This document shows, piece after piece, positions 52,568 to 63,365 of a DNA stretch of 64,000 bases. The translations under genes and the position numbers were made by a program. The notes beneath the pieces are model-generated. The model made no database searches. It saw only the letters and a list, made by a program, of their open reading frames with translations, and had not been told where the DNA came from. This DNA comes from Rufibacter sp. LB8 (GTDB lineage Bacteria > Bacteroidota > Bacteroidia > Cytophagales > Hymenobacteraceae): contig NZ_JADALJ010000001.1 in NCBI RefSeq assembly GCF_014876185.1, positions 3,267,501 to 3,331,500 of the forward strand, in the 5' to 3' direction. Position 1 is the stretch's first letter. Each line of letters begins with the position of its first letter.

Positions 52568-53515
52568 TTATTGCCACTCTCCACAGAACTTCTGCTTAGC
52601 GTCTAGGAACTCCTGCCACATCTCCTGCACAATCTCCCCGGCGGGTTTGATGTCTTTCACCAGGGCGGCAATCTGGCCAATTTCCAGTTCACCTTCTTCC
52701 AGGTCACCTTCATACATGCCGCGTTTGGAGCGCCGGGAGCCGAGGAGTTCTGCTAATTCTAAGGTAGACGCTCCGCGCAGTTCAGCGGCTTTCACGTCTT
52801 GGTAGAATTTGTTTTTGAGCAGGCGCACGGGCGTGAGTTGTTTTAGGGAAAGTTCGGTGTCGCCTTCCTGGGCAGAGACTACAAGGTCTTTGAAGGCTTG
52901 GTGCGCGCTGCTTTCCAGACTGGCCACAAACCTACTGCCTACTTGCACGCCCTCGGCCCCCAAGGCCAACGCCCCGAAGATACCGGCTCCGTTCGCAATT
53001 CCGCCCGCCGCAATTAAGGGTAGGTTTACGGCTTGGCGCACCATGGGAATTAAGCAGAAGGTGGTGGTTTCTTCGCGGCCATTGTGGCCACCGGCTTCAA
53101 ACCCTTCCGCCACGATGGCGTCTACCCCGGCTTCCTCGCATTTGCGCGCGAACTTGACGTTGCTCACCACATGGATGACTTTGGCACCGTTGTCTTGGAG
53201 TAGCTTCGTCCAGGTCTTCGGGTTGCCTGCCGAGGTGACGACCACAGGTACTTTCTCTTCCATGATAATCTTGAAATGCTCTTCCAGGTTGGGGTACAGC
53301 AAGGGCACGTTCACACCGAAGGGTTTGTCAGTGGCTTTTTTGCACTTCTGGATGTGTTCGCGCAGCGTGTCTGGGTACATGGAGCCCGCGCCAATCAGGC
53401 CCAGTCCGCCCGCGTTGCTCACCGCCGACGCCAGTTTCCAGCCGCTGCACCAAATCATGCCGGCTTGTATGATGGGGTATTGGATGTTGAAAAGTTGTGT
53501 GATTCTGTTGGTCAT
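52568..53515 (-). CDS. Nitronate monooxygenase / NPD-type flavoprotein
   Basis: A 315-residue FMN-dependent TIM barrel of the 2-nitropropane dioxygenase/FabK family. Seen: YPIIQAGMIWCSG, VSNAGGLGLIGAG, VPVVVTSAGNPKTW, AIVAEGFEAGGHNGREETT (flavin-site region) and PLIAAGGIANGAGIFGALAL. It oxidises nitroalkanes or acts on enoyl compounds; the true substrate is not clear. A TATCAGGTAGCA repeat precedes its start. Confidence 0.9.
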   Translation of the reverse strand: MTNRITQLFNIQYPIIQAGMIWCSGWKLASAVSNAGGLGLIGAGSMYPDTLREHIQKCKKATDKPFGVNVPLLYPNLEEHFKIIMEEKVPVVVTSAGNPKTWTKLLQDNGAKVIHVVSNVKFARKCEEAGVDAIVAEGFEAGGHNGREETTTFCLIPMVRQAVNLPLIAAGGIANGAGIFGALALGAEGVQVGSRFVASLESSAHQAFKDLVVSAQEGDTELSLKQLTPVRLLKNKFYQDVKAAELRGASTLELAELLGSRRSKRGMYEGDLEEGELEIGQIAALVKDIKPAGEIVQEMWQEFLDAKQKFCGEWQ

Positions 53516-53520
53516 TGGTT

Positions 53521-53552
53521 GGTGTCAAGTATCGCGTATCAGGTAGCAAGAT
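53521..53552. repeat. TATCAAGTAGCA repeat before NPD gene
   Basis: GTCAAGTATCGCGTATCAGG followed by TAGCAAGATAAC, five bases upstream of the nitronate monooxygenase start codon. Confidence 0.55.
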
Positions 53553-53616
53553 AACAGCTGCCCTTTTGGGTGAGAGCACCAAAAAGGGCAGAAAAGCGTT
53601 ATTAGAAAGGCATTTT

Positions 53617-53799
53617 TCAGAGACCAGAAGTTGGCCGAATAGATTGTTTTACTCCTGATACTTTTTTAGTGTTTCTAGCTTTCTTAGTTGAAAGTTTTTT
53701 GCTTTTAAAAAAATCGCTAAGTGCTTTTTCTTCCTCGGTAGTCAATGGAGTTTGACCGCCAATAAAATCTACATCTAATTCCTGTTTCTTCGCTTTCAT
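53617..53799 (-). CDS. Small basic protein, partner of GNAT-like gene (module 1)
   Basis: A 60-residue protein: acidic-polar start with VDFIGGQTPLTTEEEKALSD then a Lys-rich tail (FFKSKKLSTKKARNTKK). It starts two bases after the GNAT-like gene and must be cotranscribed. The short pattern DFI..x..PxTxxE...F is shared with the 60-residue protein at 61899, which follows the paralogous gene. A role as regulator or antitoxin of its partner is a guess. Confidence 0.75.
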   Translation of the reverse strand: MKAKKQELDVDFIGGQTPLTTEEEKALSDFFKSKKLSTKKARNTKKVSGVKQSIRPTSGL

Positions 53800-53801
53800 A
53801 T

Positions 53802-54332
53802 CTATGAATTTTGAAAGTACTTATTAATAAGTTTAAGGGCAGCTGTGGTTTCTATAATCATCAAACGGCCGCCAAAATGAAAAGCACCAAGCGTCTTTTC
53901 ATAATGCTCTATCAACTGGGTTTTAGAAATAAAAGAAACGTTGCCATCATGCCCTCGCTGAAAGGAAAGTTTGCACGCAAATGCTACCAAGTTCCCGGGA
54001 ACACCAGCATACATTTTAGAGGCGCCTTTGTTGAACGGAGCACTCTCCACTAAGTGCATGTACACATGATCTGCCTTTACTTCAAGGCAAATAAGCCCTT
54101 GAATAATAGTAGGATTATTTACTATCGTTAACTTGTAAACATCCCGGGCGGGTTCCTTGAATTCGTTTCGCCAATTGAAAATCCAGCTATTCTTCTTGCT
54201 TACGGTTTTTAAATCTGACGTTGTGAGAACCGAAATATCAGTAGCAAAACTGTCACCAGTGACTACATTCTCAATGCTGTTGGTCAGCTTGTCTATGGTA
54301 AAATCAAGGCCGGTTTCTTTTCTCTTTCCCAC
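53802..54332 (-). CDS. GNAT-like protein of two-gene module 1
   Basis: A 176-residue protein, about half identical by eye to the product of 61370-61894. Conserved blocks: DKLTNSIENVVTG at the start, VYKLTIVNNPTIIQGLI, MHLVESAPFNKG, GVPGNLVAFACKLSF and SKTQLIEHYEKTLGAFHF, followed by IETTAALKLINKYF. The last three resemble GNAT acyl-CoA-binding and C-terminal elements, so an acetyltransferase fold is likely. It starts with GTG, as does the paralogue. Confidence 0.78.
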   Translation of the reverse strand: MGKRKETGLDFTIDKLTNSIENVVTGDSFATDISVLTTSDLKTVSKKNSWIFNWRNEFKEPARDVYKLTIVNNPTIIQGLICLEVKADHVYMHLVESAPFNKGASKMYAGVPGNLVAFACKLSFQRGHDGNVSFISKTQLIEHYEKTLGAFHFGGRLMIIETTAALKLINKYFQNS

Positions 54333-54403
54333 ATCTCTAATTTACGGAGATTCTAAGCAGGTGACTAATCTGCAAAGCCTATTTTATCTTCTTTGATTTC
54401 CCC

Positions 54404-55402
54404 TCAATTACTAAAATCAATCTCCGTGCTATCGCCAATATTCAAGCGCTGACTAAGTCCTTTCAAAGAAGAATCTGAACCAACCAGTGAGTCTTCCAGC
54501 ACGGCGTAGCCCAGTTCGGCGTAGCCGCCAATGATGGAGTTGCGGACAATGGTGTAGTTGAGAATGGCGCTCTCGCCAATGGCCACGTTGGGGCCCACTA
54601 TGGAGTTGGAAATCTGTACGCCTTTGCCAAAGCTCACCGGCGGAATGATGATGGTGTTGGGGAACTCGGGGTACTGGGCGCGTTTGAACTCGGGGCGGTT
54701 GAGGAGCGTGGCGTTGGCCTGCAGGAGCGTGTCTTTGCGGCCGCAGTCAAACCAGTGGTCCACAGTGAGCGACACCATTTTCTCGCCTTCCTGAAGCATG
54801 TGCATGAGCGCATCGGTGAGGTGGTACTCGTTCTGGGTTCTTATGTCATTGGTGATGATGTGCTCCAGCGAATGCACCAGTTTGGCGGGGTTGGCAATCT
54901 TGTAAAGGCCTACCAGCGCGAAATTGCTCTTCGGGATTTTAGGTTTTTCCACCACCTTCGTGATAAAACCCTGGTTATCCATTTCAGCTATGCCGAAGAG
55001 GCTGGGCGTTTTCACGGGCTTGACGGCCAGCAGGGTTTGGTCACCGGTGAGCACTTTCTGCATGTCCACGTCCACAATGGTGTCGCCTAGCTGAATCAAG
55101 ACGCTTTCTTCGTGCTGAAACGTGTCGCGGGCGGCCCAGAGCGCGTGGCCCAGGCCTTCGCGGGGTTGCTGCACCACAAATTCCACCTGTAGGTCTGGGT
55201 ATTTGCGCTGCACGTAATGCATGATTTTTTCGCCCAGGTAACCCACCACCAGCACAAACTGCGTAATGCCCGCGGCCTGCAGGTTTTCAATGATGTGGCC
55301 CAGAATGGCTTTGCCCGCAATGGGCACCAAGGCTTTGGGTTGGGTGTGCGTGTGCGGTCTCAGGCGGGCGCCCATGCCCGCCACCGGTATAATTGCTTTC
55401 AT
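54404..55402 (-). CDS. Sugar-phosphate nucleotidyltransferase
   Basis: A 332-residue enzyme with an N-terminal nucleotidyltransferase domain (AIIPVAGMGARLRPHTHTQP and KALVPIAGKAILGHII; VLIQLGDTIVDVDM) and a C-terminal left-handed beta-helix of hexapeptide repeats (VQISNSIVGPNVAIGESAIL). It makes a nucleotide sugar such as dTDP-glucose for surface polysaccharides; it resembles the glucose-1-phosphate thymidylyltransferase group. Start taken at MKAIIPVAG (55402). Confidence 0.88.
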   Translation of the reverse strand: MKAIIPVAGMGARLRPHTHTQPKALVPIAGKAILGHIIENLQAAGITQFVLVVGYLGEKIMHYVQRKYPDLQVEFVVQQPREGLGHALWAARDTFQHEESVLIQLGDTIVDVDMQKVLTGDQTLLAVKPVKTPSLFGIAEMDNQGFITKVVEKPKIPKSNFALVGLYKIANPAKLVHSLEHIITNDIRTQNEYHLTDALMHMLQEGEKMVSLTVDHWFDCGRKDTLLQANATLLNRPEFKRAQYPEFPNTIIIPPVSFGKGVQISNSIVGPNVAIGESAILNYTIVRNSIIGGYAELGYAVLEDSLVGSDSSLKGLSQRLNIGDSTEIDFSN

Positions 55403-55579
55403 AAATCTCAAAGGAGCTTTGCCAACCCAAGCTACGCAATCTTGCTGATTTTACCTGCACTCCAGCGTGCACTTAACCGGGCACCGGGCCCACAAGACAA
55501 AATATTCTATTAGCATTTTTGAATATATCTGCGCAACCTTGCTACCTTTAGAAAGCACAGACAGCGGCGCTGCCCACGT

Positions 55580-55619
55580 GCGTTTTTGGCCTCGTTTCTA
55601 GAAATGAGCCCCAAAACGC
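55580..55619. repeat. 40-bp palindrome copy 29 (divergent gap)
   Basis: GCGTTTTTGGCCTCGTTTCT with right arm GAAATGAGCCCCAAAACGC, between the nucleotidyltransferase and lemA genes. Confidence 0.86.
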
Positions 55620-55704
55620 ATATTTTCTGCGGATAGTACGTATAGAAGGTGCTTTCACTCACAAACCAAAAATGACAACGCAATTCCTTAAACCAACCCA
55701 CGCT

Positions 55705-56283
55705 ATGAAAAAATTCTTGCTTTACTTCTTCGGTCTGGTGATTCTGGCCTCACAGAGTTCCTGCGGTTACAATGACATGGTGGCCAAAGACGAAGCCGTG
55801 TCCAGCCAATGGGCGCAGGTGCAGAACGTGTACCAACGCCGCGCCGACCTGGTGCCCAACCTGGTGAACACCGTGAAAGGCGCCGCCGCCAACGAAAGAG
55901 AGACCCTTACCGCCGTGATGGAAGCCCGCGCCAAAGCCACCAGCATTAACCTCAGCGCCGATGATTTGACCCCCGAGAACATGCAGAAGTTCCAGGCCGC
56001 GCAAAGCCAGCTGAGCGGTTCACTGTCAAGGTTAATGGCCACCGTAGAAGCCTATCCAGACCTTAAATCCAACCAAAACTTCCTGGAACTGCAGGCCGAA
56101 CTTTCTGGTACCGAGAACCGGATTACCGTGGAGCGCCAGAAGTTCAACACCGCGGTGCAAGACTACAACGGCTACATCAGGGCTTTCCCGCGCAACCTCT
56201 TTGCTGGCATGTTTGACTTTGAGAAGAAAGGCTACTTTGAAGCCGAAGCCGGTGCCAACAAGGCGCCTACCGTTCAGTTTTAG
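55705..56283 (+). CDS. LemA family lipoprotein
   Basis: A 192-residue LemA protein. N-terminal anchor ending in a possible lipobox (LASQSSC), then the LemA pattern VSSQWAQVQNVYQRRADLVP followed by NLVNTVKGAA, later LSGTENRITVERQKFNTAVQ and YNGYIRAFPRNLFAG. LemA proteins are helical bundle envelope proteins usually encoded with TPM-domain genes, as here. ATG at 55705 gives the anchor; 55672 is an upstream alternative. Confidence 0.92.
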   Translation: MKKFLLYFFGLVILASQSSCGYNDMVAKDEAVSSQWAQVQNVYQRRADLVPNLVNTVKGAAANERETLTAVMEARAKATSINLSADDLTPENMQKFQAAQSQLSGSLSRLMATVEAYPDLKSNQNFLELQAELSGTENRITVERQKFNTAVQDYNGYIRAFPRNLFAGMFDFEKKGYFEAEAGANKAPTVQF

Positions 56284-56287
56284 GTTA

Positions 56288-56317
56288 GTATCAAGTAGCA
56301 GGTATCAGGTAGCAAGA
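56288..56317. repeat. TATCAAGTAGCA tandem repeat after lemA
   Basis: GTATCAAGTAGCAG and GTATCAGGTAGCAAGA start five bases after the lemA stop. Confidence 0.65.
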
Positions 56318-56357
56318 CTTGTGAAAGTTTGCGCCTATTTACCTCAAGGCTAGATTT

Positions 56358-56397
56358 CCGTTTTCGGGCTCGTTTTCAGAAATGAGCCCGAAAACGC
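56358..56397. repeat. 40-bp palindrome copy 30
   Basis: CCGTTTTCGGGCTCGTTTTC with right arm GAAATGAGCCCGAAAACGC, between lemA and the first TPM gene. Confidence 0.87.
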
Positions 56398-56448
56398 ATT
56401 TTCTGCCAATTCTTAATTCCCCATTCCTAATTCTTAATTAACCCAAGA

Positions 56449-56913
56449 ATGGCACGCGATATCATCACTGAGGCCGACGAGGCCGTCATCACCAAGGCCA
56501 TTGAGGAAGCCGAGCGCAACACCTCCGGCGAGATACGGGTGCACATAGAAGACACCTGTGACGGCGAAGTGCTGGACCGCGCCACGCAAGTCTTCGCGTA
56601 TCTGCATATGCACCAGACCAAACTAAGGAACGGCGTGCTGTTCTACGTGGCGCTCAAAAGCCACAAGTTTGCCGTGCTGGGCGATGGCGGAATCAACGCC
56701 GTGGTGCCCAAGAATTTCTGGGAGGAGATCAACCAGGTGGTTATTGCAGATTTCAAGCTGGGCCATTACGCCGACGGCCTGAAAAAAGGCATTACCATGG
56801 CCGGCGACCAGCTCAAGGCGTATTTCCCGTACGCCGGCGACCACAAAGACATCAATGAGTTGCCTAATGATATTTCCTTCGGCTCCAATCTGAACAAAGA
56901 CCAGCAGACATGA
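56449..56913 (+). CDS. TPM-domain protein 1
   Basis: A 154-residue soluble TPM-domain protein without signal (ITKAIEEAERNTSGEIRVHI, FYVALKSHKFAVLGDGGIN, VVIADFKLGHYADGLKKGIT). TPM domains are linked to photosystem repair in plants and to phosphatase-like folds; in Bacteroidota they come after lemA. Its stop overlaps the start of the next gene by four bases. Confidence 0.9.
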   Translation: MARDIITEADEAVITKAIEEAERNTSGEIRVHIEDTCDGEVLDRATQVFAYLHMHQTKLRNGVLFYVALKSHKFAVLGDGGINAVVPKNFWEEINQVVIADFKLGHYADGLKKGITMAGDQLKAYFPYAGDHKDINELPNDISFGSNLNKDQQT

Positions 56914-57692
56914 GAAAACACTTTTGGCTTTTATGTTCGCTGTTGCTTTTTGCGCTGTCTTTGCAGGCGCAGGATTTTCCGCCCAGGCCCAGTCCGCCGC
57001 GGCTGGTCAATGACCTGGCCAACATTCTGAGCCCCGAGCAGGAGCAGGCGCTGGAGCAGAAACTGGTCAACTACAATGACAGCACCTCTACCCAGATTGC
57101 CGTGGTCAATATCACCTCCATTGGCGGCTATGACATCTCAGACTACGCGGTGAAACTGGCCGAGGCGTGGGGCGTGGGGGAGAAAGGCAAGAACAACGGC
57201 ATCTTGATTTTGACCGCCGTAAAGGAGAGAAAAGTCTTTATTGCGGTAGGCTACGGCTTGGAAGGCGCGGTGCCAGACGGCATTGCCAAGCGCATCACGG
57301 AGTACACCATCAAACCCGAATACCAGAAAGGCGATTATTATACTGGCCTTGACAAAGGCACTAGTTTTATCATTGACGTAGCCTCTGGCGAATACAAAGC
57401 CGACCCCAAAGCCCAACGCAGTGAGGGCGAAGGTGGCATTCCCATTCTCTGGATCATCATTGGCGTCATGATTCTGGTCTTCATTATCAGCCGAAGAGGC
57501 GGTGGCGGCAAAGGCGGCCGTCGTAGCCGTACCCTGGGCGGACCGTTCTTCCCACCCGTTATCTTCGGGGATTTCTCTGGCGGCCGCGGCATGTTTGGGG
57601 GCGGCGGCGGCGACTTTGGAGGAGGAGGCGGTGGTTTCGGCGGCTTTGGCGGCGGAAGCTTCGGTGGCGGCGGCGCCGGGTCTAGTTGGTAA
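56910..57692 (+). CDS. TPM-domain protein 2, membrane-anchored with Gly-rich tail
   Basis: A 260-residue protein: signal peptide (FWLLCSLLLFALSLQAQ), periplasmic TPM domain (PRLVNDLANILSPEQEQALE, GVGEKGKNNGILIL, KVFIAVGYGLEGAVPDGIAK), a membrane segment (PILWIIIGVMILVFIISRR) and a Gly-rich tail (GGGGGDFGGGGGGFGGFG). This is the typical companion of LemA. Translationally coupled with the preceding TPM gene. Confidence 0.92.
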   Translation: MRKHFWLLCSLLLFALSLQAQDFPPRPSPPRLVNDLANILSPEQEQALEQKLVNYNDSTSTQIAVVNITSIGGYDISDYAVKLAEAWGVGEKGKNNGILILTAVKERKVFIAVGYGLEGAVPDGIAKRITEYTIKPEYQKGDYYTGLDKGTSFIIDVASGEYKADPKAQRSEGEGGIPILWIIIGVMILVFIISRRGGGGKGGRRSRTLGGPFFPPVIFGDFSGGRGMFGGGGGDFGGGGGGFGGFGGGSFGGGGAGSSW

Positions 57693-57730
57693 GATTTTGC
57701 CTTGTTTCCGCTCTGCGGAAGGTTGAATTG

Positions 57731-57780
57731 AAAAAGCGTTTTCGGCTTCATTTCCAGAAATGAGCCCGAAAACGCTTTTT
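57731..57780. terminator. Palindrome copy 31 with T tails (likely terminator)
   Basis: AAAAAGCGTTTTCGGCTTCA, centre, TGAGCCCGAAAACGCTTTTT. The core palindrome 57736-57775 is extended by A and T runs, so this copy would work as a bidirectional terminator between the convergent TPM and membrane-protein genes. Confidence 0.75.
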
Positions 57781-57827
57781 GGTTTAAGGTACATCTGCTC
57801 TGACCCAGACACTCTTCTCCCTATTTT

Positions 57828-59258
57828 TTACCGTGTCCGCTTATAAAACGGACCGTTCTCCTGCCGTTCATACCGCCCAAAAACCGCTGGCAATTTGTAC
57901 TGAAGCTCAGGCATCAAGCCTTTCTGGTCAATGATATAAGCAGGCGGACGGTGGCGCAAATCAGTGAAAATGGTAAACAGCGCGTCATAATGATTTCGTC
58001 GTCCAAAAAAAGGTTTCGCTAAATCCCAGCGCAAATATGGGGAGCCGAGGCGGTTGTGCTGGTAGTAATTTAAGTCGGGGCCCAGGACTAAGATTTCTTC
58101 GTTTTGGATGTTGCGGTAACGCGGGGCTTCGCGCACTTGTACCAGTTCTGGGTCAATGCCCAGCGGCAAGTACACCAGGCCCAGCGGGTTGTAGCGCATG
58201 GCCACCACGCTGGCCACAATCACCAGAAACAGAATATCAGCAATCCAGAATTTCTTGCCGCTCCAGGTGAACAGGAACACGCCAAAATACGCCAGCAAGG
58301 GCAACACCATGATCAGGCCTTTGGCCGAACCGTCGTGCCCGCTGACCAACACTAGCGCCACCACAATGAGCCAGATGAGCATGAACTGCAGGAAACGGGC
58401 TTGGTAATTGGCGCCTAAATTCACCAAGGGCAAACTCAGGAAAGACAGCACCAGCACCAGCATCGGCACGGCCGCCACTTTTACCACTTGCCAGAAGGGC
58501 AGCACAAATGTGAACTTGAACTGCCAGCTCCAGGCCAGGCCCAACTCCAGAAACGGCCCCAGCGCGTCTTGGTACAGAAAGAACGTGAACACCACACTGA
58601 AGGGGAACGCAAAGCCGGTGAGCATCAACAACGTGCTCCTGAACGCGCCCGACGCAAAGTAGATAATCGCAAAAAAGCCCAGCACCAGAAACCACACCAG
58701 CGGCAAATAACAGAGCGCGGCCAGCCCTAACATGAACCCGGCCTTAAATAGACGGCCCGCGTTGGCGGCATCTTTGGAAATAGAGGTAAGGCTGGAAACG
58801 GCCAGCAGTACAAACGTATGCCCCAGTAAGAGCGGCGAAAGTACATCCAGTTCAAAGAATATACTCCCGAACAACATGTAGAACAGCGCCGGCACGTAAG
58901 ATTTCTGCGGATGTACCTGGTTGCGGTTGAAGATGTAGTTGAGCAGAAACGCTTGGTAGCCTATCAGCAACGTGGCCAATAATCTATGCACCAGATAAGA
59001 ACGGCCCGCCACCAGATCCAGGAGCCAGTAGACGGCGGCGCTCAGCGGGGCGGTGGTGTCATAAACGTCCTGGTAATGCATGAAGCCGGCCGCCAGGCGT
59101 TCGCCCAGGAGCATGTGGTGGAGTTCAGACAAAGTGGCGGGCATGCCCACCAGCACCAGTGGGAGCCTAATCAGGAGAAAAAGCAGCACCAACACCACCC
59201 ACCTAGACGGGAACAAACTTCTAAAGAATCGTATCAAGGGTAGACGCGGCTGAGCCAC
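57828..59258 (-). CDS. Polytopic membrane protein (glycosyltransferase-like or DUF6427-like)
   Basis: About 476 residues with some ten to twelve hydrophobic helices (WVVLVLLFLLIRLPLVLVG, FKAGFMLGLAALCYLPLVWF, and so on) and a C-terminal soluble part (EEILVLGPDLNYYQHNRLGS). The loop MHYQDVYDTTAPLSAAVYW recalls the first loop of membrane glycosyltransferases, but no catalytic motif is certain. The frame extends to an ATG at 59402 inside rbfA, which is unlikely; GTG 59258 or TTG 59237 are better starts. Confidence 0.7.
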   Translation of the reverse strand: MAQPRLPLIRFFRSLFPSRWVVLVLLFLLIRLPLVLVGMPATLSELHHMLLGERLAAGFMHYQDVYDTTAPLSAAVYWLLDLVAGRSYLVHRLLATLLIGYQAFLLNYIFNRNQVHPQKSYVPALFYMLFGSIFFELDVLSPLLLGHTFVLLAVSSLTSISKDAANAGRLFKAGFMLGLAALCYLPLVWFLVLGFFAIIYFASGAFRSTLLMLTGFAFPFSVVFTFFLYQDALGPFLELGLAWSWQFKFTFVLPFWQVVKVAAVPMLVLVLSFLSLPLVNLGANYQARFLQFMLIWLIVVALVLVSGHDGSAKGLIMVLPLLAYFGVFLFTWSGKKFWIADILFLVIVASVVAMRYNPLGLVYLPLGIDPELVQVREAPRYRNIQNEEILVLGPDLNYYQHNRLGSPYLRWDLAKPFFGRRNHYDALFTIFTDLRHRPPAYIIDQKGLMPELQYKLPAVFGRYERQENGPFYKRTR

Positions 59259-59306
59259 TCCAGAAAGAGAGCGGCGGTTTGTGGGGTAAAAATGTGAAAT
59301 TAATAC

Positions 59307-59314
59307 GATATTTG
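59307..59314 (+). promoter_or_regulatory. Putative -7 element of rbfA (GATATTTG)
   Basis: GATATTTGCGG resembles TAnnTTTG and lies seven bases before the rbfA ATG, with a TTTG -33 candidate at 59278-59281 (spacing slightly long). It implies a nearly leaderless transcript. Confidence 0.35.
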
Positions 59315-59321
59315 CGGAACC

Positions 59322-59816
59322 ATGGAAAGTAAACGCCAACAAAAATTTGCCCGCCTGATCCAGAAAGAGCTCGCTGAAATCTTCCAGCGTGAGTGCTCGC
59401 ACCTGTTTCCGGGGGCGTATATATCAGTGAGCGGCGTGCGCGTGTCGCCAGATTTGGGCGTGGCCAAAGTGCATTTGAGCCTGCTGCTCAACCCCAACGG
59501 CCGCGATTTGCTCAATGAAATCAAAGTAAACAGTAAGACCATCCGGCACGAGATGGCCAAGCGCATCAGAAACCAGGTGCGCGTGATCCCAGAGCTGATT
59601 TTTTATCTGGATGACACCGCCGAGTACGCCGCCAAAATGGACAAAATCATCAACGAGCTCCACATTCCGTCTGAGTCAAAAGAAGACCCTACCAACCCGT
59701 TCACTAACCCAGACGACGAAGAGGAAGATGACCTTTATGACGAGGAAGGCCTGGAAGAAGATGACGACGATGTGGATGACCAGGAAGACGAAGAATCTGA
59801 AGACGACAAGCGCTAA
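59322..59816 (+). CDS. rbfA: Ribosome-binding factor A with acidic tail
   Basis: A 164-residue RbfA, a KH-fold factor for 16S rRNA maturation and cold adaptation. The family part (ESKRQQKFARLIQKELAEIF, SVSGVRVSPDLGVAKVHLSL, RHEMAKRIRNQVRVIPELIF, YLDDTAEYAAKMDKII) ends near residue 118. It is followed by about 40 residues of almost only Asp, Glu and a few polar residues, an unusual extension. Confidence 0.95.
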   Translation: MESKRQQKFARLIQKELAEIFQRECSHLFPGAYISVSGVRVSPDLGVAKVHLSLLLNPNGRDLLNEIKVNSKTIRHEMAKRIRNQVRVIPELIFYLDDTAEYAAKMDKIINELHIPSESKEDPTNPFTNPDDEEEDDLYDEEGLEEDDDDVDDQEDEESEDDKR

Positions 59817-59841
59817 GCCAACCCGCTACTAAACCCACCCA

Positions 59842-60651
59842 ATGCAGTACGATCCCATTAAACGCGTCCTGGGCGAAGCGTTCAACCAAACGCCTTTCCT
59901 GCGCAAAGTATTCTACAACCTGCTGGACTTGCTGCTGCTGCGCACCTGGCACATTCACAAAGAATTGCGCGCCTGGGCGAAAGGCAAGCGCCAGCAGCCC
60001 GTGCAGATTCTGGACGCCGGTTCCGGCTTCGGGCAATACAGTTATTATCTCTCTGGCATGAGCGAGAACTGGCGCGTGCTGGCCGTAGACGTAAAAGACG
60101 AGCAGGTGGCAGACTGCAATAACTTTTTCCAGCAGATCAAGCGCCGCAACGTGCTGTTCAGGGTAGAGGATCTGGTCACGTTCCAAGACCCGGAGGCTTT
60201 TGATCTGGTGTTGAGCGTTGACGTGATGGAGCACATTCTGGAAGACGTGGAGGTGTTCAAGAACTTCCATGCGTCCATGAAGAAAGGCGGCATGCTGCTG
60301 ATTTCCACACCCTCAGACCAGGGCGGCTCAGACGTGCACGGCGATGATGAAAGCTCGTTCATTGAAGAACACGTGCGCGATGGCTACAACATCCAGGAGA
60401 TTCAGGAGAAATTGCGCAGCGCCGGTTTCAGTCGTACCGAAGCCCATTATTCGTACGGCGCACCGGGCAAAATCTCGTGGCGCCTGAGCATGAAATACCC
60501 TATTCTGATGTTGGGTTTTTCAAAGCTGTTCTTTCTGGTGCTGCCGTTTTATTATTTGTTGGTGTATCCGTTCTGCCTCTTGCTGAATTACTTAGACACC
60601 CACGGCAAGCACGCCACCGGCACCGGCCTTATTGTGAAAGCCTGGAAATAA
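59842..60651 (+). CDS. Class I SAM-dependent methyltransferase
   Basis: A 269-residue methyltransferase. Motif I LDAGSGFGQYSYYL (about 55-68), VLAVDVKDEQVADC, FDLVLSVDVMEHILEDVEVF and MKKGGMLLISTPS fit the UbiE/Methyltransf_11 type; the C-terminus carries a hydrophobic segment (LFFLVLPFYYLLVYPFCLLL) that may dip into the membrane, so a lipid or glycolipid substrate is possible. 25 bases after rbfA. Confidence 0.88.
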   Translation: MQYDPIKRVLGEAFNQTPFLRKVFYNLLDLLLLRTWHIHKELRAWAKGKRQQPVQILDAGSGFGQYSYYLSGMSENWRVLAVDVKDEQVADCNNFFQQIKRRNVLFRVEDLVTFQDPEAFDLVLSVDVMEHILEDVEVFKNFHASMKKGGMLLISTPSDQGGSDVHGDDESSFIEEHVRDGYNIQEIQEKLRSAGFSRTEAHYSYGAPGKISWRLSMKYPILMLGFSKLFFLVLPFYYLLVYPFCLLLNYLDTHGKHATGTGLIVKAWK

Positions 60652-60672
60652 ACAGGCAAGAAAATAGCATTT

Positions 60673-60712
60673 CCGTTTTAGGGCTCGTTTTCAGAAATGA
60701 AGCCAAAAACGG
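60673..60712. repeat. 40-bp palindrome copy 32
   Basis: CCGTTTTAGGGCTCGTTTTC with right arm GAAATGAAGCCAAAAACGG, between the methyltransferase and acetyltransferase genes. Confidence 0.83.
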
Positions 60713-60753
60713 AAACCCTTGGAAGTGCCTAGTTTAACCGAAACTGTTACCAC

Positions 60754-61233
60754 ATGACAGAATTCCTCAGAACCAACGCCACGCACCCAGATTTCACAGA
60801 ACTGGTGATGCTCCTGGACGCTGACCTGCACGTGCGCGACGGCGACGACCACTCGTTCTACGCGCAGTTCAACAAACTCCACGCCATTAGGCACGTGGTG
60901 CTGGCCTACGTGAAAGGCCAACCGGTGGGCTGCGGCGCCATTAAAGAATTTACTGACGACAGCGTGGTGGAAGTGAAGCGCATGTTTGTCTTGCCCGAAT
61001 TTAGAAACCGCGGCGTGGCCCATAAACTATTGATTGAACTGGAACGCTGGGCCGCTGAACTGGGCTACAAAGAACTGGTGCTGGAGACCGGCAAAGCCCA
61101 ACCCGAAGCCATCAGGCTCTACACCAAAAGCGGTTTCCACATTATTCCCAACTACGGCCAGTACCAGAACATTGACAACAGCGTCTGCATGAAAAAGAAG
61201 CTGAACAAGCTGCCGGAAAACGTGGAAGCCTAG
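60754..61233 (+). CDS. GNAT N-acetyltransferase
   Basis: A 159-residue acetyltransferase: VEVKRMFVLPEFRNRGVAHK then LLIELERWAAELGYKELVLE (acetyl-CoA motif A) and AIRLYTKSGFHIIPNYGQY (motif B). Small-molecule substrate unknown. Confidence 0.88.
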   Translation: MTEFLRTNATHPDFTELVMLLDADLHVRDGDDHSFYAQFNKLHAIRHVVLAYVKGQPVGCGAIKEFTDDSVVEVKRMFVLPEFRNRGVAHKLLIELERWAAELGYKELVLETGKAQPEAIRLYTKSGFHIIPNYGQYQNIDNSVCMKKKLNKLPENVEA

Positions 61234-61244
61234 GGCAAGAATTT

Positions 61245-61285
61245 CCGTTTTCGGGCTCAATTCTGGAAATGAGCCCGAAAACGGG
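61245..61285. repeat. 40-bp palindrome copy 33
   Basis: CCGTTTTCGGGCTCAATTCT with right arm GAAATGAGCCCGAAAACGGG, between the acetyltransferase gene and module 2. Confidence 0.87.
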
Positions 61286-61369
61286 AGTAGAGGGCACAGA
61301 ATTGTTCTACTTCATAACCAGAGAAGCCTGGCTCTTTTTAATGCACTAAGTGAATTTATTGTACAACGC

Positions 61370-61894
61370 GTGGGTAAGGTAAAAGTAACGGGTCTTGAAT
61401 TTGATGTTGACAAACTGACTAATTCTATTGAGAATGCAGTAACTGGAGAGGTTTTTGACACAGAAATAACGCGGCTTTCAGCGAAAGACAACAGGAGTAT
61501 TAAGAAAGCAGAGTGGCTGTTTGATTGGAAGAAAGAATTGAAAGATTCCACAAAAGAGGTTTATAAACTGACTTCTGCCAATAACCCAGCCATTATACAA
61601 GGGCTGCTAAGCATTGAAGACAAGCAAGACCACATTTTCATGCACCTTATTGAAAGCTCTAATTTTAACAAGGGCCAAAATAAGGTTTATCTGGGCGTGC
61701 CGGGCAACTTGGTAGCGTATGCCTGCAAAGTGGCCTTTGAACGAAGTTACCAAGGATTTGTAGCTTTTGATTCAAAAACAGCGTTAATAGAACATTACCA
61801 GCGTACCTTGGGGGCAACACATTTCAGAGGGCAAAGAATGTTCCTTGAAACAACTGCCGCCACAAAACTGGTGAACCAATACTTTAGAGACTAA
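61370..61894 (+). CDS. GNAT-like protein of two-gene module 2
   Basis: A 174-residue paralogue of the product of 53802-54332. Shared blocks: DKLTNSIENAVTG, VYKLTSANNPAIIQGLL, DHIFMHLIESSNFNKG, GVPGNLVAYACKVAF, SKTALIEHYQRTLGATHF, ETTAATKLVNQYF. The C-terminal half looks like a GNAT fold. Starts with GTG, like its paralogue, and is followed after four bases by a 60-residue partner gene. Confidence 0.8.
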   Translation: MGKVKVTGLEFDVDKLTNSIENAVTGEVFDTEITRLSAKDNRSIKKAEWLFDWKKELKDSTKEVYKLTSANNPAIIQGLLSIEDKQDHIFMHLIESSNFNKGQNKVYLGVPGNLVAYACKVAFERSYQGFVAFDSKTALIEHYQRTLGATHFRGQRMFLETTAATKLVNQYFRD

Positions 61895-61898
61895 GCTT

Positions 61899-62081
61899 AT
61901 GGGACTTATAAGGGAACCGAAGAATATAGATTTCATCATTAAATCTGAACCTTGGACAGAGCAAGAATTGACCGATTTCAGGAAGGAGATGAATAAAATT
62001 AAAGCCAAGAATGCGAAAAACAAGGCTATAGTTAATCCACGGCCAGTAACTTTAAAAAGCCAAATCGCACCTCAGAAGTAG
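61899..62081 (+). CDS. Small basic protein, partner of GNAT-like gene (module 2)
   Basis: A 60-residue protein with IDFIIKSEPWTEQELTDFRK followed by a basic tail (EMNKIKAKNAKNKAIVNPRP). It shares the short pattern DFI, Pro, Thr, Glu and an aromatic helix with the 53617 protein, though overall similarity is low. Its fixed position behind the GNAT-like gene at both loci supports a functional link. Confidence 0.75.
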   Translation: MGLIREPKNIDFIIKSEPWTEQELTDFRKEMNKIKAKNAKNKAIVNPRPVTLKSQIAPQK

Positions 62082-62141
62082 TAAAAACACTTTTAAACGG
62101 CTTGCCGTTAACCTCACAACCAACCCCACCAAACCCCAAAG

Positions 62142-63365
62142 ATGAACGTTGCCCTTCTGATCGCCCGGCGGTACTTCTTCTCCAAGAAGAAGCGCAACAT
62201 CATCAACATCATCTCCATCATTGCCATGATTGGCGTGGGCGTGGGTACCATGGCGCTCATTGTGGTGCTGTCGGTGTTCAACGGGCTGGAAGATTTGATC
62301 AAGTCCCTCTACGGCAAGTTTGACCCCGAAATAAAAATCACCGCGCTACAGGGCAAATCGTTTGAGGCGAACGCCGATTTTCTGGCCAAGATCAAGAACA
62401 CGCCGGGCGTGGCGCTCTACACCGAAGTCATAGAAGATAACTGCCTGCTGCGCTACAATGACCGCCAGATGGTAGTTAAAATCAAAGGCGTGAGCGACAA
62501 TTTCTTTCAGCAGAACCAGATTGACTCTGCCATTGTAGACGGCCATTACCGCCTCAAACGCGACAACCAGCAATACGCGCTCATTGGCCGTGGCGTGCAA
62601 TACCAATTGTCCATCAGGCCAGAGAACCCATTCTCACCGTTGCAGTTTCTGTACCCCAAGGCTGGCAAGAAAACGGTAATCAACCCAGAGAACGCGTTTA
62701 GGCAATTGGGCATTCAGGCGGGCGGCGTGTTCGCCATTGAGCGGCAGTATGACGACCAATACGTGTTTGTGCCCCTGACCTTCGCGCAGGAATTGCTGGG
62801 CTATGAAAACAAGCGCACTTCCATTGAAGTCAAAACCAAAAACCCAGACCAAATTGACAAAGTAAAAGCCTCCCTGCAGAAAAGCCTGGGCCCCGACTTT
62901 CAGGTGCTCAACAGCGAGGAACAGCACGTGAGTTTGCTGCGCGCCGTGAAAGTGGAGAAACTGTTTGTGTTTGTGACGTTTACCTTTGTCTTGCTCATCG
63001 CCTCTATCAACATTTTCTTCAGCCTCTCTATGCTGGTGCTGGATAAGCAGAAAGACATCGCCATTCTGGCCTCATTGGGTGCCGATGCCGGAACAATTAG
63101 GCGTATATTCCTCTTGGAGGGCGCCATTGTAGCCTTTACCGGTGCAATAGTGGGCTTGGTGGTGGGCGGAGCCATCTGCTGGGCGCAACAGACATTTGGC
63201 ATTGTGTCTATGGGCATGACCACCTCAGTGGTAGAAGCGTACCCGGTGCTTATGCGCCCTTCTGACTTTCTGCTCACGGCCACGGCTATTATTGTGATTA
63301 CGCTGCTGGTGTCCATCAGGCCCGCCCGCAAGGCCGCCGCACTTTCCATCAGAGACAATCTGTAA
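62142..63365 (+). CDS. FtsX/LolC-type ABC permease
   Basis: A 407-residue inner-membrane permease of the LolC/LolE (FtsX-like) family. N-terminal segment (RRYFFSKKKRNIINIISIIA, MIGVGVGTMALIVVLSVFNG), a periplasmic MacB-like domain (about 50-270) and three C-terminal membrane helices (LFVFVTFTFVLLIASINIFF onward) with the FtsX core LASLGADAGTIRRIFLLEGA. It would take part in lipoprotein release. In Bacteroidota this gene often stands directly after rbfA; here four genes lie between. Confidence 0.92.
   Translation: MNVALLIARRYFFSKKKRNIINIISIIAMIGVGVGTMALIVVLSVFNGLEDLIKSLYGKFDPEIKITALQGKSFEANADFLAKIKNTPGVALYTEVIEDNCLLRYNDRQMVVKIKGVSDNFFQQNQIDSAIVDGHYRLKRDNQQYALIGRGVQYQLSIRPENPFSPLQFLYPKAGKKTVINPENAFRQLGIQAGGVFAIERQYDDQYVFVPLTFAQELLGYENKRTSIEVKTKNPDQIDKVKASLQKSLGPDFQVLNSEEQHVSLLRAVKVEKLFVFVTFTFVLLIASINIFFSLSMLVLDKQKDIAILASLGADAGTIRRIFLLEGAIVAFTGAIVGLVVGGAICWAQQTFGIVSMGMTTSVVEAYPVLMRPSDFLLTATAIIVITLLVSIRPARKAAALSIRDNL

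Follow-up and report, generated by a model that had tools for sequence, protein, structure and literature searches.

In the 64,000-nt stretch of the Rufibacter sp. LB8 genome analysed here (contig NZ_JADALJ010000001.1, positions 3,267,501 to 3,331,500 of the forward strand; hereafter the window, numbered from its first letter), two similar two-gene modules were found, each made of a GNAT-like gene and a small basic partner. A preliminary description of this DNA had reported paired, GTG-started open reading frames (ORFs) for GNAT-like proteins, each followed 2 to 4 nt on by an ORF of 60 amino acids (aa), and the coordinates hold:

53802-54332, minus strand: module 1 large protein with predicted GNAT fold, putative toxin (ORF of 176 aa, GTG start)
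53617-53799, minus strand: module 1 basic partner, putative antitoxin (ORF of 60 aa, ATG start, 2-nt gap after the large ORF)
61370-61894, plus strand: module 2 large protein with predicted GNAT fold, putative toxin (ORF of 174 aa, GTG start)
61899-62081, plus strand: module 2 basic partner, putative antitoxin (ORF of 60 aa, ATG start, 4-nt gap after the large ORF)

The large proteins are alike over their whole length, as had been stated (58% identity across 175 columns), and the small ones have indeed diverged while keeping a common motif, being hardly alignable otherwise (expectation value E of 0.02 in a single comparison). At E <= 0.001 the two modules are the only copies in this genome. 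Their guanine plus cytosine (GC) content is 39-40%, against 51% for the window.

Neither gene belongs to a family of Pfam or NCBIfam. Both large window proteins gave 0 Pfam families at E <= 1, a Pfam scan of 20 members of the large-protein family returned 10 weak families with no GNAT model among them, PADLOC and PHROGs held no credible family for the window proteins, and a sequence profile search of the PDB found no credible relative (best E 0.32). The family is tied to GNATs by sequence through a distant Streptococcus relative (L093), which passes the Pfam model Acetyltransf_1 (E 5.9e-8). The AlphaFold2 model of the module 2 large protein (15 rows) reached a mean predicted local distance difference test score (pLDDT) of 90.6 and a predicted template modelling score (pTM) of 0.86. 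Compared with the PDB using Foldseek, it gave 38 matches at E <= 1e-3, the complex of TacT3 with a TacA3 peptide being second and AtaTR third, and nearly all of the 50 matches listed were acetyltransferases. A second structure comparison placed TacT3 on top (Z score 13.0, root mean square deviation 2.5, 139 residues aligned; another TacT3 row, Z 12.8), with AtaTR (12.2), AtaT (11.9) and KacT (11.5) near the top. The proposed GNAT fold is thus supported by the predicted model and its fold matches, at 8-17% sequence identity to TacT/AtaT/KacT-type chains. The canonical acetyl-CoA loop of GNATs is Q/RxxGxG/A; in the large protein this loop is degenerate and reads KxYxGVPGN. Tyr143, which we take to occupy the usual position of the GNAT-toxin tyrosine, is kept in at least 90% of 20 rows, and Lys136 is invariant in a 16-row cross-phylum alignment.

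The large protein was found by single-sequence search in 15 of 200 genomes of the bacterial family to which Rufibacter belongs (the genome of the window included). A 20-row profile detected it in 31 of the 395 phylum genomes sampled, spread over 22 of 171 genera, as well as in 14 of 92 genomes from a different bacterial family. The 12 loci obtained by a scan of genome contigs all carry names that we take to be those of Bacteroidota, some of the placements being our assumption. Outside the phylum, tblastn searches matched 15 plasmid records (Paenibacillus, Streptococcus, Treponema, Aneurinibacillus, Niallia) and 1 phage record, the plasmids being those of Firmicutes and of Treponema; 9 of the 15 plasmid records were fetched, including one of the six Streptococcus matches and one of the two Paenibacillus polymyxa matches. 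Such a patchy spread resembles that of mobile accessory genes.

Association of the two genes was examined in the main clade of the family. All 40 loci judged intact (39 from the phylum and one viral contig) have an ATG-started partner ORF of 50-78 aa located between -17 and +15 nt from the end of the large gene, compared with 4 of 44 in a control set of window ORFs of 200 aa or more, non-genes included; the pairing thus exceeds chance. Each of the 10 loci fetched from plasmids and phages has a next ORF of 53-88 aa, which is unannotated in L088 and L089. A conserved two-gene operon with a small partner, which is a feature of type II toxin-antitoxin systems, is present. Loci left out of these counts were L054 and L129 (contig edge) and L010 (start of the large gene unclear, partner present), as well as the partner matches L120 and L125 (chance match inside a long ORF; degenerate). 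L046 was counted as intact though its frame showed no ATG, GTG or TTG start, and L023, which covers profile positions 5-155 of 169 and lacks a partner, was assigned to the broken class.

Main-clade partners carry one of two signature forms, (I/V)KEPKxVDF or KKxELDVDFIGG, followed by PxTxEE..xFxxxK. Of 40 partners, 38 carry a net positive charge; the tail is Lys-rich, and the best conserved positions (D in 34/40, T in 32/40, E in 34/40 and K in 36/40) lie in the N-terminal strap and the helix, not in the tail. Large proteins share 54% pairwise identity on average, and partners 26%. The AlphaFold2 model of the module 2 partner is a single helix (residues 21-45) with flexible ends (mean pLDDT 73), and has the look of a peptide that would fold on its target. 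Among nine small partners scanned, no match was obtained to the helix-turn-helix (HTH) and ribbon-helix-helix (RHH) models of Pfam, nor to DUF1778 or DUF4065; the partner appears to be devoid of a recognisable DNA-binding domain, which is usual, not universal, in type II antitoxins. Three candidate families were set aside: DUF7277 (PF23942), matched below the cut-off by 1 of the 9 members (E 0.0022) and attributed to chance, and the weak matches to AbiEii in PADLOC (E 0.0046) and to phrog_21418 (E 0.0074), each given by only one of the two small window proteins. The DUF7277 model matched none of the 395 genomes, which shows little by itself because the 14 controls gave nothing either.

When main-clade loci were sorted by state, both genes were intact in 40, the large gene was broken or truncated beside an open partner in 15 (L011, L012, L013, L014, L015, L016, L021, L030, L036, L049, L055, L066, L116, L127 and L131), and both were broken or lost in 4 (L017, L023, L050 and L057). 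An intact large gene without a partner occurred at 0 main-clade loci. Five more loci (L108, L110, L111, L113 and L115), which came from the partner profile search only, have a partner but no recognisable large gene within about 1.5 kb. One-sided decay of this kind would be expected of a toxin and its antidote. The ratio of nonsynonymous to synonymous substitution rates (dN/dS) of the partner was 0.04-0.16 in 17 of the 24 pairs computed (saturated in 3, higher in 4), and the low values include three locus pairs whose large genes are both broken; for the pair L067/L042 it was 0.34. The low ratios indicate purifying selection, and the partner is therefore a real, selected protein in these pairs.

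The same GNAT domain was also found with a larger partner. A divergent clade of 12 loci (support 98/96), into which the long-branched Streptococcus sequence L093 falls, has a protein of 156-184 aa as its next ORF in 12 of 12 loci (L093 not counted; L081/L063, broken, and L082/L065, a fragment, left out). The five of these partners that were scanned gave four sub-threshold HTH matches (E 1.7e-4 to 0.05) and one no match, which weakly suggests Xre-type antitoxins. To judge from these sequences, the association of one GNAT with either a small or a 156-184 aa partner looks like an exchange of partners between toxin-antitoxin systems.

Members of the family are carried by phages as well as plasmids. 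The viral contig L067 encodes a MuB-like protein, a transposase resembling MuA and a repressor-like protein, with its module some 0.8 kb past the gene for the last of these. The minor head protein of Fusobacterium phage phiPaco (L094, 524 aa) contains a Phage_Mu_F domain (PF04233, positions 201-307, E 3.9e-11) and ends in a GNAT-like domain of the family (family profile E 2e-33), and an ORF of 58 aa overlaps the end of its gene by 4 nt. Five IMG/VR contigs hold copies that are 95-100% identical to the phiPaco GNAT-like domain, so that they count as one lineage. The phiPaco protein has the architecture defined for MuF polymorphic toxins in the available text of PMC5576092, in which a MuF domain is combined with an effector-like domain at the C-terminus and a small ORF lies downstream. 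The window copies are stand-alone ORFs that are not fused to MuF. Viral scans made with L093, L085, L091 and one divergent-clade member found no relative.

Other observations were made on these records. The family member on a Treponema succinifaciens plasmid (L086) directly adjoins type IV secretion genes, and the distant member on a Streptococcus salivarius plasmid (L093) lies in a block that also includes ERF-family and Paratox genes. A partial relative (match H18) is located near the record end of Streptococcus satellite phage Javan296. At L106 (genome G463, 700-2520), two HigB/HigA-type toxin-antitoxin-like pairs were seen by eye beside an orphan-like partner and a large-gene remnant.

The origin of the two modules was inferred from a tree of large proteins (62 rows) and from the corresponding sites of 15 congeners. 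The module 1 protein groups (support 99/87) with L041, L042 and the Mu-like phage copy (79-85% identity; 85% to the phage copy L067) within a group of 14 rows (94/84). The group of the module 2 protein has 21 rows (93/93), and the sequences nearest to that protein, 69-73% identical, are from Flavobacterium and Chitinophagaceae (82/62, weak). The two proteins thus fall into separate subclades, and each groups more closely with proteins from other genera than with its counterpart. Within 1.5-kb flanks, none of the 15 congeners has the module at either site. At the module 2 site, an ordinary GNAT gene directly adjoins an FtsX-like permease in 14 of them, the GNAT gene of the 15th being outside the flank; at the module 1 site, a nucleotidyltransferase-like gene neighbours a nitronate monooxygenase gene in 15 of 15, four with an unrelated ORF in between. 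The preliminary description had spoken of a duplicated module, which does not agree with these data, and local tandem duplication is rejected on the basis of the tree position and the empty congener sites. Because the subclades differ, the congener sites are empty and the GC content is 39-40% versus 51%, the modules are most simply explained by two independent insertions 7 kb apart.

We consider that each module is probably a horizontally mobile, toxin-first GNAT toxin-antitoxin cassette with a minimal antitoxin. The large gene would encode a GNAT-fold acetyltransferase that most likely inhibits growth by acetylating an essential component, and aminoacyl-tRNA would be the first-guess target by analogy with TacT, AtaT and KacT. 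The 60-aa gene would encode the minimal antitoxin, with an N-terminal strap bearing the signature motif, a helix (..PxTxEE..xFxxxK) and a basic tail; it may bind the toxin and thereby block it, in much the same manner as the TacA and AtaR C-terminal peptides, without a recognisable DNA-binding domain. The idea of a new toxin-antitoxin pair with a partner other than RHH in second place, already put forward in the preliminary description, gains from the conserved neighbourhood, the decay pattern, the selection on the partner and the mobility of the modules.

Several points weigh against this proposal. GNATs that are not described as toxins score within 1 Z of TacT3 (Listeria 2oh1, Z 12.2), and the structural nearness of the modelled large protein to tRNA-acetylating toxins is for this reason suggestive only. 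The degenerate acetyl-CoA loop would be compatible with an inactive enzyme. The large gene of L023 ends about 12 profile positions early and is without partner; if it were intact, pairing would be 40 of 41. As the large gene has about three times the length of its partner, length alone would yield 15 of 15 discordant breaks with a probability of about 0.01; moreover, related loci with breaks are not independent, and some assemblies are drafts in which breaks may be assembly errors. The distance matrices of large protein and partner correlate (Mantel r 0.68, 0 of 2000 permutations as high), a correlation that fails to separate coevolution from shared descent. Finally, the orphan partners L108, L110 and L113 have dN/dS values of 0.25, 0.31 and 1.05, relaxed rather than maintained, and selection on the partner is perhaps relaxed where the large gene is gone.

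The strict adjacency of the genes and the positive charge and Lys-rich tail of the partner (38 of 40) would also suit a modifier-substrate pair, in which the GNAT acetylates that tail and the partner then acts as an acetylation-controlled effector, for example a nucleic-acid-binding peptide. We regard this as improbable, since conservation of the partner is concentrated in strap and helix rather than in the tail, the divergent clade joins a quite different partner of 156-184 aa to the same enzyme, and partners remain open where the enzyme is broken. Even less probable is a resistance or metabolic acetyltransferase that detoxifies a small molecule, with the partner as its subunit or regulator. 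The distribution is accessory and patchy, as would be expected of such an enzyme, and we take the GNAT fold to be mostly metabolic; decay, however, affects the enzyme and leaves the partner open, whereas the reverse would be expected of an enzyme that confers the benefit. The occurrence of the domain as part of a phage head protein and the small ORF that follows the large gene in every plasmid or phage locus fetched also speak against it.

The phage data may be read in another way, as the trace of a phage-conflict effector with its immunity protein: a phage-moved weapon or defence effector (an injected toxin of MuF type, or a prophage anti-phage module), whose chromosomal pairs would act in abortive infection or be domesticated immunity cassettes. 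It would have the same molecular parts as a toxin-antitoxin cassette and a different role, and the likelihoods given to the two overlap. The C-terminal position of the domain in a MuF head protein directly followed by a 58-aa ORF, its near-identical copies in five viral contigs, the module that lies past the repressor-like gene in a Mu-like phage contig, and the orphan partners all fit. We nevertheless hold this role to be somewhat unlikely, in view of the lack of a credible PADLOC match, the single MuF lineage, the relaxed dN/dS of the orphan partners and the fact that most copies seen are stand-alone two-gene cassettes. It is possible, though less likely than not, that one GNAT-fold effector family bridges addiction cassettes of chromosomes, plasmids and Mu-like phages and MuF-packaged effectors delivered to the next host, to which lysogens and cassette carriers would be immune through the partner of roughly 60 aa.

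Among known systems, TacAT, AtaRT, KacAT and ItaRT resemble the window modules in being two-gene operons with a GNAT-fold protein, TacT3, AtaT and KacT being among the best structural matches, and their antitoxins bind the toxin through C-terminal peptides, as given by the titles of PDB entries 7ak9, 9ils and 6gtq. They differ in their partner, a DUF1778 RHH protein encoded upstream, whereas the window partner lies downstream, has 50-78 aa in the family and has no RHH or DUF1778 match in Pfam; the large protein also differs by its low identity (8-17%) and by belonging to no Pfam family. According to the available text of PMC9177977, the antitoxins of known GNAT toxin clades are of the DUF1778 or DUF4065 type, and GNAT-DUF4065 is a GNAT toxin that exchanged its antitoxin; the window partner has no DUF4065 match. 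As the partner matches neither DUF1778 nor DUF4065, the family is not filed under TacT/AtaT, though it may work alike. Makarova et al. 2009 predicted GNAT-RHH and GNAT-Xre pairs and, in the portion of the article available (PMC2701414), preferred a resistance-type role. By its description, GNAT-Xre is similar to the divergent clade (a GNAT, then an HTH-like protein) and different from the clade of the window, whose partner is tiny and without HTH.

MuF toxins are resembled by the phiPaco head protein (Phage_Mu_F, C-terminal GNAT-like domain, small ORF) and not by the stand-alone window copies; the main text of the MuF survey (PMC5576092) contains neither "GNAT" nor "acetyltransferase". GNATs on phages and conjugative elements were described by Iyer et al. 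2017 in large multidomain polyvalent proteins, with RimI-like clades; they share this carriage with the window family and differ by their large multidomain context, and the accessible text of that article (PMC5512222) makes no mention of a MuF-GNAT fusion. The "GNAT-XAT" with a lysine-rich peptide on the cfiA element of Bacteroides fragilis, called Elp3- or AtaT-like in the part of PMC9138018 at hand, is superficially similar and was set apart by its description only. The text of PMC3482391, as far as available, gave no match for GNAT or acetyltransferase, and among titles and abstract starts in the open-licence literature, which are weak evidence of absence, none describes the window family or a MuF-GNAT fusion. 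If the proposal is true, there would be at least one more GNAT toxin clade beyond the DUF1778 and DUF4065 types, toxin-first and with a very small antitoxin, in a family that occurs in 31 of 395 genomes of the phylum and on plasmids of other phyla, yet whose window proteins fall into no family of Pfam, NCBIfam, PADLOC or PHROGs. It would provide a compact, easily tested pair and a natural antitoxin exchange on one toxin (tiny peptide versus larger HTH-like protein), as well as a candidate acetyltransferase cargo for MuF head proteins that the text of the MuF survey (PMC5576092) does not name.

The surroundings of the modules in the window are as follows:

53516-53616: module 1 flank towards the nitronate monooxygenase gene (52568-53515)
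54333-54403: module 1 flank towards the nucleotidyltransferase-like gene (54404-55411, putative name)
59842-60651: methyltransferase-like ORF (putative name), between the putative rbfA ORF and the ordinary GNAT gene
60754-61233: ordinary GNAT gene left of module 2 (Pfam Acetyltransf_1)
61234-61369: module 2 left flank, from the end of the ordinary GNAT gene, containing a palindromic repeat at 61246-61283
62082-62141: module 2 right flank, to the FtsX-like permease gene (62142-63365)

Module 2 had been thought to split rbfA from the permease. The ORF at 59322-59816 is presumably rbfA, and the methyltransferase-like ORF and the ordinary GNAT gene intervene; the genes actually split are the ordinary GNAT gene and the FtsX-like permease, which adjoin without the module in 14 of the 15 congeners. 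At the module 1 site, the unrelated ORFs of four congeners (L156, L157, L158 and L166) have 202, 428, 153 and 128 aa, respectively, as stop-to-stop frames, and given such ORFs in 4 of 15 congeners this site looks like an insertion hotspot.

Two kinds of palindrome were also seen. A dispersed palindromic repeat resembling repetitive extragenic palindromes (REP) extends over window positions 319-63807 (e.g. 56359-56396, 57737-57774 and 61246-61283), its 18-base half-site being matched 55 times in 64 kb at up to 3 mismatches, versus 0.03 expected; 38 of the 55 half-sites make 19 inverted pairs with a distance of about 20 bases. The copy immediately upstream of module 2 was not seen, by eye, in 14 congener stretches of that site. 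At the module 1 site of L152-L155 and L159-L165, another imperfect palindrome was noted by eye, of the TAGCAAGTATC... type or the GTCTTGTGTC... type, and letters similar to it occur in the window at about 53520-53545 and 56288-56312.

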